NCBI RefSeq assembly: GCF_014697355.1
Contig: NZ_JACJRQ010000001.1
Coordinates: 620,001-684,000 of the forward strand
Reading direction: 5' to 3'
Length of the DNA stretch: 64,000 nt
Source of the DNA: Nostoc calcicola FACHB-3891
GTDB taxonomy: Bacteria > Cyanobacteriota > Cyanobacteriia > Cyanobacteriales > Nostocaceae
The notes beneath the pieces are model-generated. The model made no database searches. It saw only the letters and a list, made by a program, of their open reading frames with translations, and was not told where the DNA came from. Made by a program: the position numbers and the translations under genes. Position 1 is the first letter of the stretch, and each line of letters opens with the position of its first letter. This document shows positions 1-5,366 of this stretch, piece after piece.

Positions 1-2
1 AA

Positions 3-230
3 CCTGTTTCTGATGAAACCAGAGTCTTTAAACAAGCAACAGAAATTATTAAATCCATTGCTGAAGATGTCGCAAGTACATTAAAAGATATTAGCGAGAC
101 AGTCAAGCCAGATAAATTTAGTGTCAAACTAGGTTTACAAATTGGAGTTGAGTCAGGACAACTAACCGCTTTAATTGTCAAAGGAACAGGCACAGCTAAC
201 CTAGAAATTACGATGGAATGGGGTAAATAA
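3..230 (+). CDS. Trypco1-like protein (5' end outside the window)
   Basis: The open frame enters from the left edge and stops with TAA at 228-230, giving about 75 residues. The tail has the pattern KFSVKLGLQIGVESGQL followed by a short strand ending in TMEW. This matches what I remember of the trypsin-co-occurring domain 1 (Trypco1, also listed as CU044_2847 family), whose hallmark is a 'fGvklsaeaGa...f.vtltW' segment. That domain is typically encoded beside trypsin-like or NTPase conflict proteins, and the next gene is a trypsin-ATPase fusion on the same strand, so the call and the context support each other. Function is inferred: a small constant component regulating or sensing for the neighbouring protease/ATPase. 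The N-terminus cannot be seen. Confidence 0.6.
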   Translation, partial: PVSDETRVFKQATEIIKSIAEDVASTLKDISETVKPDKFSVKLGLQIGVESGQLTALIVKGTGTANLEITMEWGK

Positions 231-276
231 CAGTTGATTGTTTTATACCAATTTAATGTGAAATTGCACATATCTC

Positions 277-362
277 GATCCCCCTAAATCCCCCTTAAAA
301 AAGGGGACTTTAATAGATGTTTTTCCGGTTCCCCCCTTATTAAGGGGGGGCTAGGGGGGATC
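277..362. repeat. Dispersed C/G-run hairpin repeat, copy 1
   Basis: The repeat starts GATCCCCCTAAATCCCCC and ends CTAGGGGGGATC, with opposite runs of C and G able to pair. Related copies lie at 15766-15898, 49589-49880, 55930-56004, 56464-56495 and, in frame inside a gene, around 6412-6452. It separates the trypco1-like gene from the protease gene. Such repeats are common in Nostocales intergenic DNA. It may act as a transcript end, but no poly-T tract follows. Confidence 0.8.
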
Positions 363-441
363 GAATTATATGCAGTCTCATAGAAAATTGGTATTACAGT
401 TGTGGTAATCTTTTTACAAAGATGCTAGGTGAGAGCAATTG

Positions 442-2016
442 ATGGGTAACGAAGACGATTTACAACGCTGTACAGTGCGTTTAAATGTTGCCAGTAGTCA
501 GGGAACAGGTTTTTTTGTTGCACCGAATTGGATTCTCACCTGCGCCCATGTAGTTGAATCTGCAAAAGATAACCCCGTGCAAGTATTCTGGAAAGCAGAA
601 AACCAGAATTACACAGCTAAAGTTACGCAATCATACAAATATCCCATTGATTTAGCCCTTTTACAACTGGACGAGGATTATTTGGATCATCCCTGTGTTG
701 AATTGGATGACACAAAACCTAATACCAACGATGATTTATATATTTTCGGTTATCCCAAGAATAGCGAAGTTGATTATTCGCTGGGAGATTCAGCAAGCTT
801 TAAATATGAAGGAATAAGTTTTAAACAGGATATTATTCTCTATAAATTAAAGCAAGGGCAAGTTATCTCTGGCTTTAGTGGTTCGCCTTTACTAAATTTA
901 CTAACAGGAAAAGTTTGTGGAATTGTGCATCTTTCCCGTGATGAGGGTAACGATTTAGGGGGGCGGGCAGTTTCGGCTCAAATGATTGTGCAACAGTTTC
1001 CTGAAATTGCCCTACTCAATCAACAATTTCATCAGCCAAAGCCCAAAGGTGATAATCCATTTGAATTTGGTTCTCCTGTTCCTCCACAACGTTTTTACGG
1101 ACGGAGAAAAGAGATTTTAGAGATTAAAAACCGCATTGGCGCGATTAGTCCTCAATGTGTCAATTTGGTAGGCTTGCGGCGCAATGGAAAAACCTCTCTA
1201 TTGCGATATATCAAAGAAAGAATCAGCGAATTTTGTTCGCCAAAACAAAAGCCTTTAGTTGTTTTTTTAGATTTAACGAGTAAGAATTTTCATACTCCAG
1301 AGGGGATTATTGAAGGCTTAAGGCGAGGGATTCACAAACTAACAGGGAATTCTCCTTGGTTAAAGGAAGATAATGAAGATGGCTTTGCAGTAGAAGATAG
1401 CTTACAGTTTTTAGTAGATGAAGGGTATCGTTTAATTATTTTATTGGATGAGTTTGAAGCCATTGCTAGTAAAAAAGATAGATTAGAATTGTTTCAGGAT
1501 TGGGGAGAAGATTGGCGTTCTAAGGCTTGTGCAGGTTTATTAACAATGGTAATTGGCAGCAAACGCCCTCTTAATGAAGTTTACAAAACTTTGAGTCTGG
1601 GTTCTCCCTTTGACAATATTTTCAGTACGACTATTTTAGGGGCATTAGAGGAGGAAGCTTGGCAAAGCATCATCCAGAAAGGATTTCCGGCTAATTCTGC
1701 GCTATTGGAATGGATAGATGAGTTAGCAGGAGGGTTGCCCTATTATGTGCAGATGGCAGGGGCGATGTTGTGGCAATATGGGAATCAAGAAATAGCTAAA
1801 AATGAGTTTAATTTTCAAGCAAAGCCTCGTTTTGAAGAACTTTGGAAAGATTTAACCGAAGTTGAACGTTTAGCATTGCGTTATGAGTTGGGAGGGGGTA
1901 ATTTACCTATTCGCGATCGGGCAATTATAGATAGGCTTCAACGTCATGGGTTATTACGGAAGAATAGGGGTTTATTTAGCAGTGTGTTTGCAGAGTTTGT
2001 GAAAGGTCAAAGATAA
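442..2016 (+). CDS. Trypsin-like serine protease fused to a P-loop ATPase
   Basis: The protein has 524 residues from ATG 442, preferred over an in-frame TTG three bases upstream because GGTGAG precedes it. Residues 1-190 are a trypsin fold with catalytic His36 (TCAHVV), Asp70 (PIDLALL) and Ser146 (GFSGSP). From about 205 a STAND/archaeal-type ATPase follows: entry motif NPFEFGSPV, Walker A GLRRNGKTS at 244-252, Walker B LIILLDEFE near 335, and a winged-helix-like C-terminus. There is no signal peptide, so it is probably cytoplasmic. The architecture fits NTP-dependent conflict systems, where an ATPase senses invasion and releases a protease effector; that role is inference. The next gene carries a related ATPase. 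Confidence 0.85.
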   Translation: MGNEDDLQRCTVRLNVASSQGTGFFVAPNWILTCAHVVESAKDNPVQVFWKAENQNYTAKVTQSYKYPIDLALLQLDEDYLDHPCVELDDTKPNTNDDLYIFGYPKNSEVDYSLGDSASFKYEGISFKQDIILYKLKQGQVISGFSGSPLLNLLTGKVCGIVHLSRDEGNDLGGRAVSAQMIVQQFPEIALLNQQFHQPKPKGDNPFEFGSPVPPQRFYGRRKEILEIKNRIGAISPQCVNLVGLRRNGKTSLLRYIKERISEFCSPKQKPLVVFLDLTSKNFHTPEGIIEGLRRGIHKLTGNSPWLKEDNEDGFAVEDSLQFLVDEGYRLIILLDEFEAIASKKDRLELFQDWGEDWRSKACAGLLTMVIGSKRPLNEVYKTLSLGSPFDNIFSTTILGALEEEAWQSIIQKGFPANSALLEWIDELAGGLPYYVQMAGAMLWQYGNQEIAKNEFNFQAKPRFEELWKDLTEVERLALRYELGGGNLPIRDRAIIDRLQRHGLLRKNRGLFSSVFAEFVKGQR

Positions 2017-2053
2017 AGCAATAAGCCAAAGATTTAAACATTAAATATAAAAA

Positions 2054-4807
2054 ATGTTGCTGTTTTTGCGAGAAATGTGCGAACTATTTTGGTGGGCAAT
2101 ATTTTGTCCTTCAAGGCTTCAGCACCGAATGAATAAATGGTTGCCTCAAAAGGAAAAAGATGGACATAGATCAGACACAAGTTTTATTGATATTTTAGCT
2201 TTCGGAAATTTACGATTTCTTAGTCAGTATTTATTACTATTATTTATTTTTAATATCCCTCTTATTTTCACATTGATTAAGCGTAATCAATTGTTGGATT
2301 GGTTACAGTTACCTTGTGTAATGTTAATTGCTTATGCGACAGGAGTTTTATTTTTACCTTTAGGACTGGTTATCCCTTTGTTGTGGTTAATAGTTGTATT
2401 AAATCAGCCTGATAGCTCGTTAAAGGGCTTAATAGAAGCTATTGAAATTTTACCTACTTTACCTCAAATGGGGATAAATATTGCAATTTTTGCAGTATCT
2501 ATATCATTAACTGTTTGGTTAATGCAACTGTTGAAAAAACATCTTTCCTTTGCTAGTAATGCTCGTAATGTGATGGTTGTCGGAGGAACAATCAATGTGA
2601 TGTTAGGAACGCGGTTAGTAACTCAAAACTGGTTGTTTCTATTGTTAGTAATTGGAATAACAGGCTTTCTCCTATTTTCAGCAATCGAAAGTATAAAAAA
2701 TAGTGATAATGCGGTCGTCATAGCGGTCGTCGCGGTGATCGTCACACCGGGAGTCATGGCGGTCGGAATGGTGGTCGCAGTGGTGGTCGCAGTGGTAGTC
2801 GGAGTGGCGGTAGGAGTTGCGGTAGGAGTGGTAGTCGGAGTGATGGTTGGAGTTGCGGGAGTTGCTACTTTACCGCTTACTTGGTTTTCGGTTGTTACAA
2901 GTTTAATCACTTTTGCTCTTGCACCAGCAAAAGACAACAGAGTTTTTATCGCCACTACAGTGATTTTAATAGCTCTTTCTGCCCAAAATTCAGGATGGCT
3001 TTCAGCATTAATTATTCCTGTAATCTTAGTCAGCTATTACAGAATTATTGACTATTTTTTCTTTGCTCCTTTCAGTTTTTTTACATTAATTATTAATCGC
3101 CTTCGTCCTCGACCGTTGCAATTACTTCACAGCTTACCTCCTTATACTAGTGAACTTCTTTGGCTACCCTTAGCATTACCTAATCACGAGCAGCTTTTCA
3201 TTTCCGCTTTTCGTAGCAATCCTCAACAGGCTTTAAACATCTTTGAATATACCCAAACTTTTTCCTTATCAGGATTTAAAATAACTCTACAAAATGCCTT
3301 ACCACAAATTGTCGCCGACCAACTCAAGCAAATTCAAAGTATTCCAAAACTAATCTTTACTGCCAACTCAGACCATCCTATATTACCCTTCCTGATTTCT
3401 CCCTTCTATCACCTCGATTCTGACAGCGATACCACCATTTCAGAAACACCTTTACCAAAGGTTAAACCCGAACTTTCTATCCTTCTTCCTCGCTTGCAAA
3501 CTATTATTCAAGATATTCAATCTGCACTTGAAAATCAAAATATAGCCCTACGAGAACGAGGATTAGACAAAATTAATAGCAAGCTTGTTCGATTACAACT
3601 CCAATTACCTTCTCTGGGACTTAAAGGCGAAGCCATTAAACGCTGGACACCTGTACTGGAACATTGGCAAACTCTTATTGAAGTGGAACAACATAAACAA
3701 CGCAAACTCTCTCAAGGCGAACTAATCAATCCGTTCCAATATGGAAATCCGGTGCGACTTGAGCAAAAAAACTTGTTTAAAGGTCGTCAGAAATTTGCCA
3801 ATGAAGTTGTCCGTCGAGTTTTAAACCGCGATCGACCTACCCTTGTGCTGCATGGCCCCCGTCGCTGTGGTAAAACTTCTTTTTTGTATAACTTTCCCCG
3901 CCTGCTTCCCAGTGATATCTTCCCCGTATTTGTGGATATGCAAAGTTCCGCCATTACCACTAGCGAATCTGACTTTTGCTTTGGCTTAGTCCGTGCAATT
4001 CATAAAGACTGCAAAAGTCAAGGGGTTCAATTACCAAACATTCCTAAACGCACCGATTTTCAACCTAGTCCCTACACCACTTTAGAAGATTGGTTGGATG
4101 AAGCATTTGACCAAATCGGAGAGCGGCGCATCCTTCTCAACCTTGATGAATTTGAAAAAATTGGTACTGCTATGCAAAACGGACAGATAACTTTACGTTT
4201 ATTTGACCAACTGCGGCACTTAATTCAACATTACGAACAACTCGGTTTTCTCTTTTCGGGGGTGCAAACTTTAGAAGAATTAGGCCCGAATTGGAGTAGC
4301 TATTTTATCAGCGTTGTCCCGATAGAAATGCTTTATCTCGAACCTAACGAAGCCGAAGAATTACTCCTTAATCCAGATCCAGATTTTGCACTGCGTTACG
4401 ATTCAGGAATTGTAGAAGAAGTATTGAAGCTTACCAATTGTCACCCTTACTGCCTACAATTATTGGGCGCATCAATGGTGAATCAAGCTAACTTTAACCA
4501 TACTGATTTTATTACTACTGAACTCTTGCAAGCTTCTATTAATGACGCCTTTATTTCCGGTCAACCTTATTTTACAAATATTTGGACAGAATTTACAGGA
4601 ACTACACCAGAAGAAATGGTAATTGGTCAAGAATTATTATTACAAGTTGCCAGAACAGATATTTTATTATCTATAAGTACTGAAATTGCTGAAAAGGTAT
4701 TAACCCGCTTGTTGCGTTATCATATTTTACACAAAATCAATGGAGGATATGATTTTGAAATTCCTCTGTTAAAACAATGGGTGAGAGAGCGTGCAGTAAA
4801 AAGCTAA
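2054..4807 (+). CDS. Polytopic membrane protein fused to a P-loop ATPase
   Basis: This is a 917-residue protein. Residues about 50-350 are strongly hydrophobic with several membrane segments. Within them, residues 238-266 place Gly or Ala at every fourth position in a Val-rich stretch (glycine zipper). A soluble linker follows, then an ATPase of the same subfamily as the upstream gene: entry motif NPFQYGNPV, Walker A GPRRCGKTS near 600-608, Walker B ILLNLDEFE near 692-700, and a winged-helix-like tail. It starts 37 bases after the protease gene on the same strand, so co-transcription is likely. The domain order suggests an ATPase that controls a membrane or pore-forming unit; this is inference. 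I know no specific family name. Confidence 0.8.
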   Translation: MLLFLREMCELFWWAIFCPSRLQHRMNKWLPQKEKDGHRSDTSFIDILAFGNLRFLSQYLLLLFIFNIPLIFTLIKRNQLLDWLQLPCVMLIAYATGVLFLPLGLVIPLLWLIVVLNQPDSSLKGLIEAIEILPTLPQMGINIAIFAVSISLTVWLMQLLKKHLSFASNARNVMVVGGTINVMLGTRLVTQNWLFLLLVIGITGFLLFSAIESIKNSDNAVVIAVVAVIVTPGVMAVGMVVAVVVAVVVGVAVGVAVGVVVGVMVGVAGVATLPLTWFSVVTSLITFALAPAKDNRVFIATTVILIALSAQNSGWLSALIIPVILVSYYRIIDYFFFAPFSFFTLIINRLRPRPLQLLHSLPPYTSELLWLPLALPNHEQLFISAFRSNPQQALNIFEYTQTFSLSGFKITLQNALPQIVADQLKQIQSIPKLIFTANSDHPILPFLISPFYHLDSDSDTTISETPLPKVKPELSILLPRLQTIIQDIQSALENQNIALRERGLDKINSKLVRLQLQLPSLGLKGEAIKRWTPVLEHWQTLIEVEQHKQRKLSQGELINPFQYGNPVRLEQKNLFKGRQKFANEVVRRVLNRDRPTLVLHGPRRCGKTSFLYNFPRLLPSDIFPVFVDMQSSAITTSESDFCFGLVRAIHKDCKSQGVQLPNIPKRTDFQPSPYTTLEDWLDEAFDQIGERRILLNLDEFEKIGTAMQNGQITLRLFDQLRHLIQHYEQLGFLFSGVQTLEELGPNWSSYFISVVPIEMLYLEPNEAEELLLNPDPDFALRYDSGIVEEVLKLTNCHPYCLQLLGASMVNQANFNHTDFITTELLQASINDAFISGQPYFTNIWTEFTGTTPEEMVIGQELLLQVARTDILLSISTEIAEKVLTRLLRYHILHKINGGYDFEIPLLKQWVRERAVKS
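2753..2870 (+). repeat. 12-bp tandem repeats inside the membrane-ATPase gene
   Basis: Degenerate GTGGTAGTCGGA-like units repeat head to tail and encode Val-x-Val-Gly tetrads (residues about 234-270). The stretch is much richer in GC than the AT-rich gene around it, which suggests local expansion by slippage rather than shared ancestry with the rest of the gene. Confidence 0.8.
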
Positions 4808-5165
4808 TTATTTAAAGTTATGATGGTGCGTTAGCCTCCGGCATAACACACCCTACTGGACTGACACAGCTAAAATAGTGCATTAGCAAAAATCAAAAAC
4901 CTTGTTTTCTATCAAGACCTCAAAAATCTATTGCATCATTTTAGTCGTGTCAGTCCACTACTGGCGTGGCAAGACTAAAGTTCTGTTGTTGCATATAGGC
5001 TAATACCATTTCACTAAAAGCCTGATACATATAGATTTCGCGTAAGGGCACGGCATTGCCGTGCCCCTACCAATGTATTTGTATCATCATTTAACGTACT
5101 CCGATGGAGTAGCAAGCGACCCGTAGCGTCTGGCAGAAAAGTATTGCTCCTTTAATCAAATGATT
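4808..5165. other. Intergenic region with short dispersed repeats
   Basis: No gene is visible. At 4824-4852 lies an imperfect hairpin of the common cyanobacterial type (GGTGCGTTAGCC...ATAACACACC). Around 5044-5070 is a CG-rich hairpin (GGGCACGGCATTGCCGTGCCC). At 5098-5135 there is a patch resembling small dispersed repeats. Confidence 0.5.
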
Positions 5166-5366
5166 TTGTTGATGAACGGCATGTGTTTGTTGATGAACGG
5201 TATGTGTTTGTTGATGAACGGCATGTGTTTGTTGATGAACGGCATGTGTTTGTTGATGAATGGCATGTGTTTGTTCATGAATGGCATGTGTTTGTTCATG
5301 AATGGCATGTGTTTGTTCATGAACGGGATGTGTTTGTTCATGAACGGGATGTGTTTGTTCATGAAA
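5166..5366. repeat. 21-bp tandem repeat array (about 9.5 units)
   Basis: Units start at 5166, 5187, 5208, 5229, 5250, 5271, 5292, 5313, 5334 and 5355 (partial), with an exact 21-bp period and the core TTGATGAACGGCATGTGT, changing to TTCATGAAYGGSATGTGT in the later units. Period 21 keeps several frames open on both strands, giving heptapeptide ORFs without any gene-like start context. The units are directly contiguous, so this is not a CRISPR array. Confidence 0.9.

Follow-up and report, generated by a model that had tools for sequence, protein, structure and literature searches.

A stretch of 64,000 nt of the Nostoc calcicola FACHB-3891 genome (contig NZ_JACJRQ010000001.1, positions 620,001 to 684,000 of the forward strand; hereafter the window; genome size 9.03 Mb) carries at its edge a Trypco1 (trypsin-co-occurring domain 1) gene, followed by a gene for a trypsin-like protease fused to a soluble ATPase and, 37 bp further, by a gene for a multi-pass membrane ATPase. 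We observed that the constant core of this arrangement is the pair of ATPases, and not the trypsin together with the membrane unit: the trypsin is one of many modules found at the front of the soluble partner, and Trypco1 follows the trypsin. A preliminary description of the same DNA had anticipated a consistent pairing of all three genes, of which the part concerning the two ATPases stood; it had also placed the protease and the membrane unit under a shared sensing design, an idea that fits the co-variation, the shared arginine and the natural fusion of the ATPases reported below. We propose, with our confidence evenly divided, that the two genes constitute a membrane-linked switch built from signal transduction ATPases with numerous domains (STAND), which activates a swappable effector, in the window a trypsin that would act on Trypco1.

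The linkage of the two ATPase genes was assessed in two sets of loci, both found via the membrane ATPase alone. The first (the best 80 of 289 relatives in named genomes) was reduced to 67 loci by the removal of one duplicate and of 12 with too little upstream sequence, and a soluble partner ATPase was encoded upstream and on the same strand in 65 of these. For the second, 32 of 40 fetched regions were used, hand-picked from the stronger matches, and once four without room upstream had been set aside the partner was present in the same position and orientation in 26/28 loci (left out were L290, which had no membrane-ATPase match, L300, L301 and L317-L320, whose tandem ATPases are built differently, and the paired locus L321). 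Another 39 loci (38 paired) were excluded from the linkage evidence because they had been chosen partly for a nearby partner. The consistent linkage expected in the preliminary description is thereby borne out, the unpaired loci being L142 and L298 (short or broken-looking genes), L187 and L294. Furthermore, the two genes share a few bases in 12 of 64 pairs, and L314 represents a natural fusion, in which a single chain of 1120 aa comprises two TIRs, the soluble ATPase and the membrane-type ATPase (the latter without a membrane part, as also in L299). Far more genomes than have the trypsin type encode membrane ATPases of approximately 30% identity, ahead of which stands an ATPase of some 360 residues that carries no trypsin.

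Besides being neighbours, the two ATPases change together: the pairwise distances between ATPase domains, membrane versus soluble, correlated with r 0.968 (n=99 pairs; near-identical trypsin-type rows were retained in this set and may raise the value), the top of 1000 permutations being 0.12. For the trees, near-identical rows were thinned beforehand (123 loci, 114 after removal of identical ones, 99 used). Walker A was present in both partners of all 86 full-length pairs, and in the alignment of the 99 pairs the membrane partner retained the Walker lysine, the Walker aspartate and glutamate and a downstream arginine in 99/99 each, with the soluble partner showing the lysine in 98 (one gap), the aspartate in 99 and the arginine in 97. 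This arginine stands 23 residues past the Walker B aspartate in both window proteins and is a candidate finger between ring neighbours. A count by regular expression disagreed with the alignment (47/70 membrane, 69/70 soluble, 46 with both), and the alignment was preferred since the expression covered only a fixed short range. It could be argued that the pairing merely reflects the duplication of related ATPases that lie side by side without working jointly, as both belong to the same broad class and weakly match the same Pfam models; we hold this to be very improbable, since the genes stay together all the way from Nostoc to Chloroflexota, a Desulfococcaceae bacterium, Acidobacteria and an ANME-1 archaeon, the sequences co-vary, and a fusion exists.

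With regard to class, the soluble partner in the window is, on the grounds of its sequence, a predicted STAND-type ATPase (AAA_22 below cut-off, 23.7 vs 27 bits), and both window proteins bear the motif that had been reported ahead of Walker A (NPFEFGSPV in the trypsin-ATPase and NPFQYGNPV in the membrane ATPase). For the trypsin-ATPase, AlphaFold gave a good model (mean predicted local distance difference test, pLDDT, 88.6; predicted template modelling score, pTM, 0.67), and among the matches listed in structure searches with it there were trypsin-like proteases only. The model of the membrane protein is fair (pLDDT 80.3, pTM 0.56); its best PDB matches were 2qen and 2fna, which we take to be STAND proteins, then RPP1, with Orc1, RuvB, MalT and Avs3 close behind, a list of model matches that by itself does not single out STAND. 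Relatives exceed the Pfam STAND cut-offs (nSTAND1 in the membrane partner L158; nSTAND2 in the soluble partners L173, L191 and others), so that a P-loop ATPase, a winged-helix tail and STAND profile or structure matches, via relatives, together place the protein in the STAND class. Of the winged-helix-like tails previously ascribed to both ATPases, the one in the membrane-protein model is clear (helices 852-868 and 877-888, strands 892-895 and 898-901, helix 904-913), and the one in the trypsin-ATPase is the weaker case, being modelled as mostly helices with two very short strands.

In contrast to the ATPases, the front of the soluble partner is exchangeable. Among 35 soluble partners scanned with Pfam, the domains above cut-off comprised Trypsin_2 (window, L309), CHAT (L137, L321; also L131, where it is carried by an additional ATPase gene that precedes a bare partner), TIR_2 (L143, L314), Pkinase with HRD and DFG motifs (L145), Guanylate_cyc (L182), EAD1 (L148), NNH2 (L289), helix-turn-helix (HTH) or Sigma70_r4 (L283, L312) and BTAD (L174, L175, L190); matches below cut-off were EAD7 (L144), EAD10 (L287, L289), CHAT (L138), NNH2 (L297) and HTH (L128, L132, L150, L288). 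The literature on predicted conflict systems lists most of these module types among the effectors or adaptors of such systems (PMC7159879, PMC8195603). A constant system of trypsin and membrane unit is ruled out by 121 of 142 distinct membrane-type-ATPase loci without trypsin (26 of the 121 with less than 4.5 kb upstream). In the membrane-ATPase tree (quickly built; 40 of its 96 inner branches are open) the trypsin type falls inside a clade of 29 rows (SH-aLRT 100), the partners of which carry TIR, EAD7, kinase, EAD1, CHAT, HTH or trypsin, and each ATPase tree requires five changes between trypsin and other modules, one of which may be L136, a broken locus. Moreover, the trypsins of L080 and L309 are 52% and 49% identical to that of the window, with ATPases only 26-31% identical, and the nearest non-trypsin ATPases are 48-65% identical to theirs; since the trypsins are near and the ATPases far, the trypsin module moves between lineages of the pair. 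Both of these loci carry Trypco1. Other arrangements of ATPase genes were also encountered: L131 (411-6305) has three in a row (CHAT-ATPase, bare ATPase, membrane ATPase), and the window's genome holds another multi-gene ATPase system (L317, L318, L319), consisting of tandem NPY-type ATPases of about 550-1050 residues, with an ATPase of 425-432 residues in front in L317 and L319.

The trypsin-like domain of the window is intact, as had been described (His36, Asp70 and Ser146 in a numbering that starts from the ATG at 442; the gene is called from the TTG at 439). The triad was complete in 21 of 22 aligned rows including the window (20 distinct sequences), the exception being L118, from which most of the domain is gone. 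A structure search with the model assigned the domain to a fold of the MarP/DegS/HtrA type, and its sequence matched the PADLOC models LmuA (Lamassu), Avs1b, HamA and RT-Protease.

The gene ahead of the trypsin, earlier called trypco1-like, proved to be a true Trypco1 (Pfam E 1.3e-16, 61.4 bits against a curated cut-off of 24.6; NCBIfam CU044_2847 E 4.8e-20, above cut-off), with a trypsin-like protease as the next gene. Trypco1 was located 15-307 bp upstream of the trypsin in 23/23 loci with trypsin and membrane ATPase, directly upstream in 21/21 distinct ones. Among the 121 distinct loci in which the membrane-type ATPase has no trypsin, one had Trypco1 nearby, and weakly at that (L291, 25 bits; the 121 include the 26 with short upstream sequence). 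These counts derive from 23 loci with trypsin and 130 without, which became 21 and 121 once nine duplicates together with L300 and L301 were removed. In two loci that lack the ATPase pair, Trypco1 lies directly upstream of a trypsin that is fused in L081 to repeats resembling tetratricopeptide repeats (TPR) and in L082 to NB-ARC and TPR, so that the trypsin-Trypco1 cassette is in use outside the pair. A remnant locus (L079) has no Trypco1, and another locus of the window's genome (L320) has Trypco1 without a trypsin of the window type. Trypco1 thus belongs with the trypsin and not with the ATPase pair, and, accompanying the fused trypsin so strictly, it is predicted to be a substrate or regulator of the protease.

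On the other side of the pair, the membrane partner was, as previously described, an ATPase fused to a multi-pass membrane part, in which we found a 12-bp tandem repeat (2757-2858) encoding a GxxxG run that the preliminary description had not mentioned. Across 123 membrane parts (out of 126, the remaining three having no hydrophobic stretch) glycine pairs at spacings of 4, 8 and 12 were 3.0, 2.7 and 2.4 times as frequent as in shuffled sequences, other spacings ranging from 0.57 to 0.92, and the spacing was individually unusual at p 0.05 in 90 of them. At the DNA level, tandem arrays whose period is divisible by 12 were present in 84/118 membrane-ATPase genes as opposed to 4/81 other genes for multi-pass transmembrane proteins at the same loci (duplicates removed), and the enrichment of glycines at spacing 4 was 2.73 in the former and 1.32 in the latter controls. 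Copy number ranged from none detectable up to 43.8 copies of the 12-bp unit (L159, 1986-4679); in L289 (4667-7414), 32 glycines are spaced by four. The region ahead of the ATPase domain differed in length by a median of 33.5 and a maximum of 95 residues in 40 pairs with ATPase identity of at least 88% (the pairs are not independent). A change of the repeat in four-residue steps between close relatives was rejected, being seen in only 12 of the 40 pairs, which does not exceed chance; other parts of the region vary too. The result is an unusual membrane design, a tandem glycine zipper with lengths that differ between close relatives.

Glycine zippers occur in channel and pore proteins. This, together with a GxxxG spacing enriched 2.7-3.0 fold and a membrane part that stays constant as front modules vary or are missing (5 of 60 partners), could mean that the membrane ATPase is itself the executioner, the zipper helices forming a depolarising pore or leak and the front module providing a second, optional output. 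We regard such a role as rather unlikely, given that arrays running from none to 43.8 copies and the length differences just mentioned would be odd for a fixed pore, and that L314 and L299 have the membrane-type ATPase without a membrane part.

For the switch with a swappable effector we propose the following sequence of events. The soluble and the membrane ATPase would act jointly and probably form a single ring or cluster at the membrane, where the glycine zipper of varying copy number would hold the membrane partner and probably cluster it. A membrane or infection signal may then reach the membrane ATPase, the ATP-driven assembly with the soluble partner would gather the front modules, and the protease thus activated would cut (or free) its partner Trypco1, whose cleavage or release might lead to an arrest or cell-death response. 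The action of trypsin on Trypco1 appears likely by analogy with Hachiman and AVAST, in which a fused trypsin activates the product of the upstream gene and such trypsin pairs hop between systems (PMC12799240). In a wider and more tentative form, to which we incline less than to its opposite, the pair would exemplify a widespread, hitherto undescribed class of membrane-anchored immune or cell-death switches, a bacterial membrane counterpart of the inflammasome, with a rapidly length-changing, frame-safe 12-bp zipper as the sensing or clustering surface and a soluble partner that swaps effectors (protease, caspase-like, TIR, kinase, cyclase). Should the proposed membrane-linked switch be real, a pair of genes that occurs in cyanobacteria, in Chloroflexota and in other groups would connect the sensing of membranes with the STAND immune logic of plants and animals.

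Several observations weigh against the proposed switch. In L118 (6548-7999) the trypsin is mostly lost (only its end is left, 15 bp from Trypco1), and Trypco1, the soluble ATPase and the pair remain; the partners with an empty front (the 5 of 60 noted above) have fewer than 30 residues ahead of the ATPase; and many partners bear an HTH or another DNA-binding type of module, which could mean a transcriptional output. In the soluble partner, the second acidic position of Walker B holds E or D in only 93/99, the AlphaFold confidence is low across the glycine zipper of the window protein (poor at residues 231-259, where the repeat region begins), and the zipper is individually not unusual in 33 of the 123 membrane proteins, several of the trypsin type included. 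Moreover, no defence genes were recognised among the ten neighbouring open reading frames (ORFs; 20 kb around the locus), which belong to ordinary cellular families or had no match, and some subfamilies recur beside genes for acetolactate synthase or YacP-like proteins (names read from sequence), which looks house-keeping. A defence island, in the vicinity of which the pair had been expected, was thus not seen among these neighbours at the window, and some subfamilies apparently sit at conserved chromosomal places.

Such neighbourhoods, recurring along the chromosome in some subfamilies and ordinary at the window, would also suit a system without any defence role, in which the membrane ATPase would detect stress in the envelope or membrane, and its soluble partner would relay the signal to a gene-regulatory or enzymatic module. 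The HTH, Sigma70_r4 and BTAD modules on several partners point the same way, as does the lack of relatives in viral and phage collections and the single weak one on a plasmid. Phage cargo was rejected on 31 pattern stretches in the viral collection, none of them a relative, with no phage record, and plasmid cargo on one weak plasmid match for the membrane protein plus two trypsin-only matches. We nevertheless consider stress signalling improbable as an explanation, for predicted conflict systems typically contain modules such as CHAT, TIR, trypsin and EAD1 (PMC7159879), and the trypsin type is patchy: it occurs in five of 145 genomes of the same family (G000, G059, G102, G025 and G023, in the last of which the membrane gene is interrupted in its front part), and G073 retains a remnant. 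For the window's membrane ATPase, the closest relatives with a name belong to Nostoc and close kin, and carriers of the pair include Nostoc, Calothrix, Crocosphaera, Pseudanabaena, Prochloron, Chloroflexota, a Desulfococcaceae bacterium, Acidobacteria, Latescibacterota and an ANME-1 archaeon.

Neither the ATPase pair nor its repeat was found described in the openly licensed literature (supplements lay outside the search). The nearest published kind are the nSTAND2 two-gene operons, predicted to be mobile, in which both genes encode nSTAND2 NTPases, one of them eroded and fused to GT4 or HEPN (Kaur et al. 2021, eLife 70394, PMC8195603). The plan is the same, i.e. two adjacent STAND NTPase genes, one with variable effector modules; an arginine finger is reported in both NTPases there, a candidate one is present in both partners here, and Pfam nSTAND2 was above cut-off in the soluble partners L143, L144, L145, L173, L191 and L286 (nSTAND2, PF20702, was not among the Pfam matches of either window ATPase at E<=1). 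Two defining features of these operons are lacking here and a membrane zipper is added: Walker A is kept in both partners here and not eroded in one, neither GT4 nor HEPN, which prevail there, was present among the 35 scanned soluble partners, and, unlike in the operons as described in the main text of that article, one of the two proteins passes through the membrane several times, often by way of a glycine zipper. An MNS-clade STAND 'Npun2340/2341 family' is named in the same source; its consecutive numbers suggest an adjacent pair in Nostoc punctiforme, and it may represent an early sighting of such a pair, although neither module exchange nor the repeat was found described for it. The trypsin part resembles the trypsin-MBL (metallo-beta-lactamase) nuclease modules of Hachiman, AVAST, Lamassu and DRT (PMC12799240) in its N-terminal fusion, in the partner gene just upstream and in having moved as a unit, and differs from them in that the upstream gene is Trypco1 instead of an MBL-fold nuclease and the host is a different ATPase pair. 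The same group had earlier named Trypco1 as a neighbour of the trypsins in VMAP systems (Kaur et al. 2020, PMC7159879), and with the VMAP/iSTAND ternary systems described there the window locus shares a Trypco1 adjoining the trypsin and an overlapping set of front modules; unlike theirs, its core consists of two STAND ATPases, and none of the MoxR, vWA and VMAP/iSTAND families was detected at E<=1e-5 in the ten ORFs around the locus. The two-gene EACC1 membrane system of the same article similarly couples a membrane component with small or glycine residues to exchangeable domains, but its membrane protein is described as having one transmembrane helix and no ATPase.

Table 1. Features of the locus in window coordinates, with strand and basis of assignment
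Feature	Position	Strand	Basis
Trypco1 (trypsin-co-occurring domain 1) gene, 3' part	1..230	+	Pfam Trypco1 (PF19493) profile
Interspersed repeat of about 150 bp, between Trypco1 and trypsin genes	243..398	.	Genome copies
Trypsin-like protease fused to predicted soluble STAND-type ATPase (exchangeable-module partner)	439..2016	+	ORF, Pfam, model, relatives
Trypsin-like domain	502..924	+	Trypsin_2, residues 22-162, E 2.4e-20
Catalytic triad codons	His 547-549, Asp 649-651, Ser 877-879	+	Alignment
Soluble-partner ATPase core from NPF motif, with helical tail	1054..2013	+	Walker A Lys251, Walker B Asp337, Arg360; alignment, model
Multi-pass membrane STAND-type ATPase (constant partner), 917 aa	2054..4807	+	ORF, AAA_22 above cut-off, model
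Multi-pass membrane part (approximate)	2201..3103	+	Hydrophobicity scan, 8 segments; all-helical in model
12-bp tandem repeat, 8.1 copies (also read as 36-bp, 2.7 copies)	2757..2858	+	Encodes GxxxG run, Gly 250/254/258/262/266
Membrane-partner ATPase domain from NPFQYGNPV	3740..4804	+	Walker A Lys607, Walker B Asp698-Glu699, Arg721
Winged-helix tail of membrane ATPase	about 4607-4792	+	AlphaFold model

The features in Table 1 rest on mechanical gene calls, and the family limits used throughout are those of profiles built in this analysis. The whole Trypco1 gene (L009:7919-8230) starts 82 bases ahead of window base 1 and ends at window base 230. The gap between it and the trypsin gene amounts to 214 bp, in comparison to about 63 bp in most close relatives, having been widened by the interspersed repeat, of which the genome holds 8 further copies at 86-95% identity and dozens of shorter, partial ones. 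Just 5' of Trypco1 (L009 7139-7585) we observed an ORF built from repeated SPFIQNT-like units. Downstream of the pair, between the membrane ATPase and a decarboxylase gene, lies a 21-bp tandem repeat (window 5165-5365; 9.6 copies, 96% matches) that is open on both strands.

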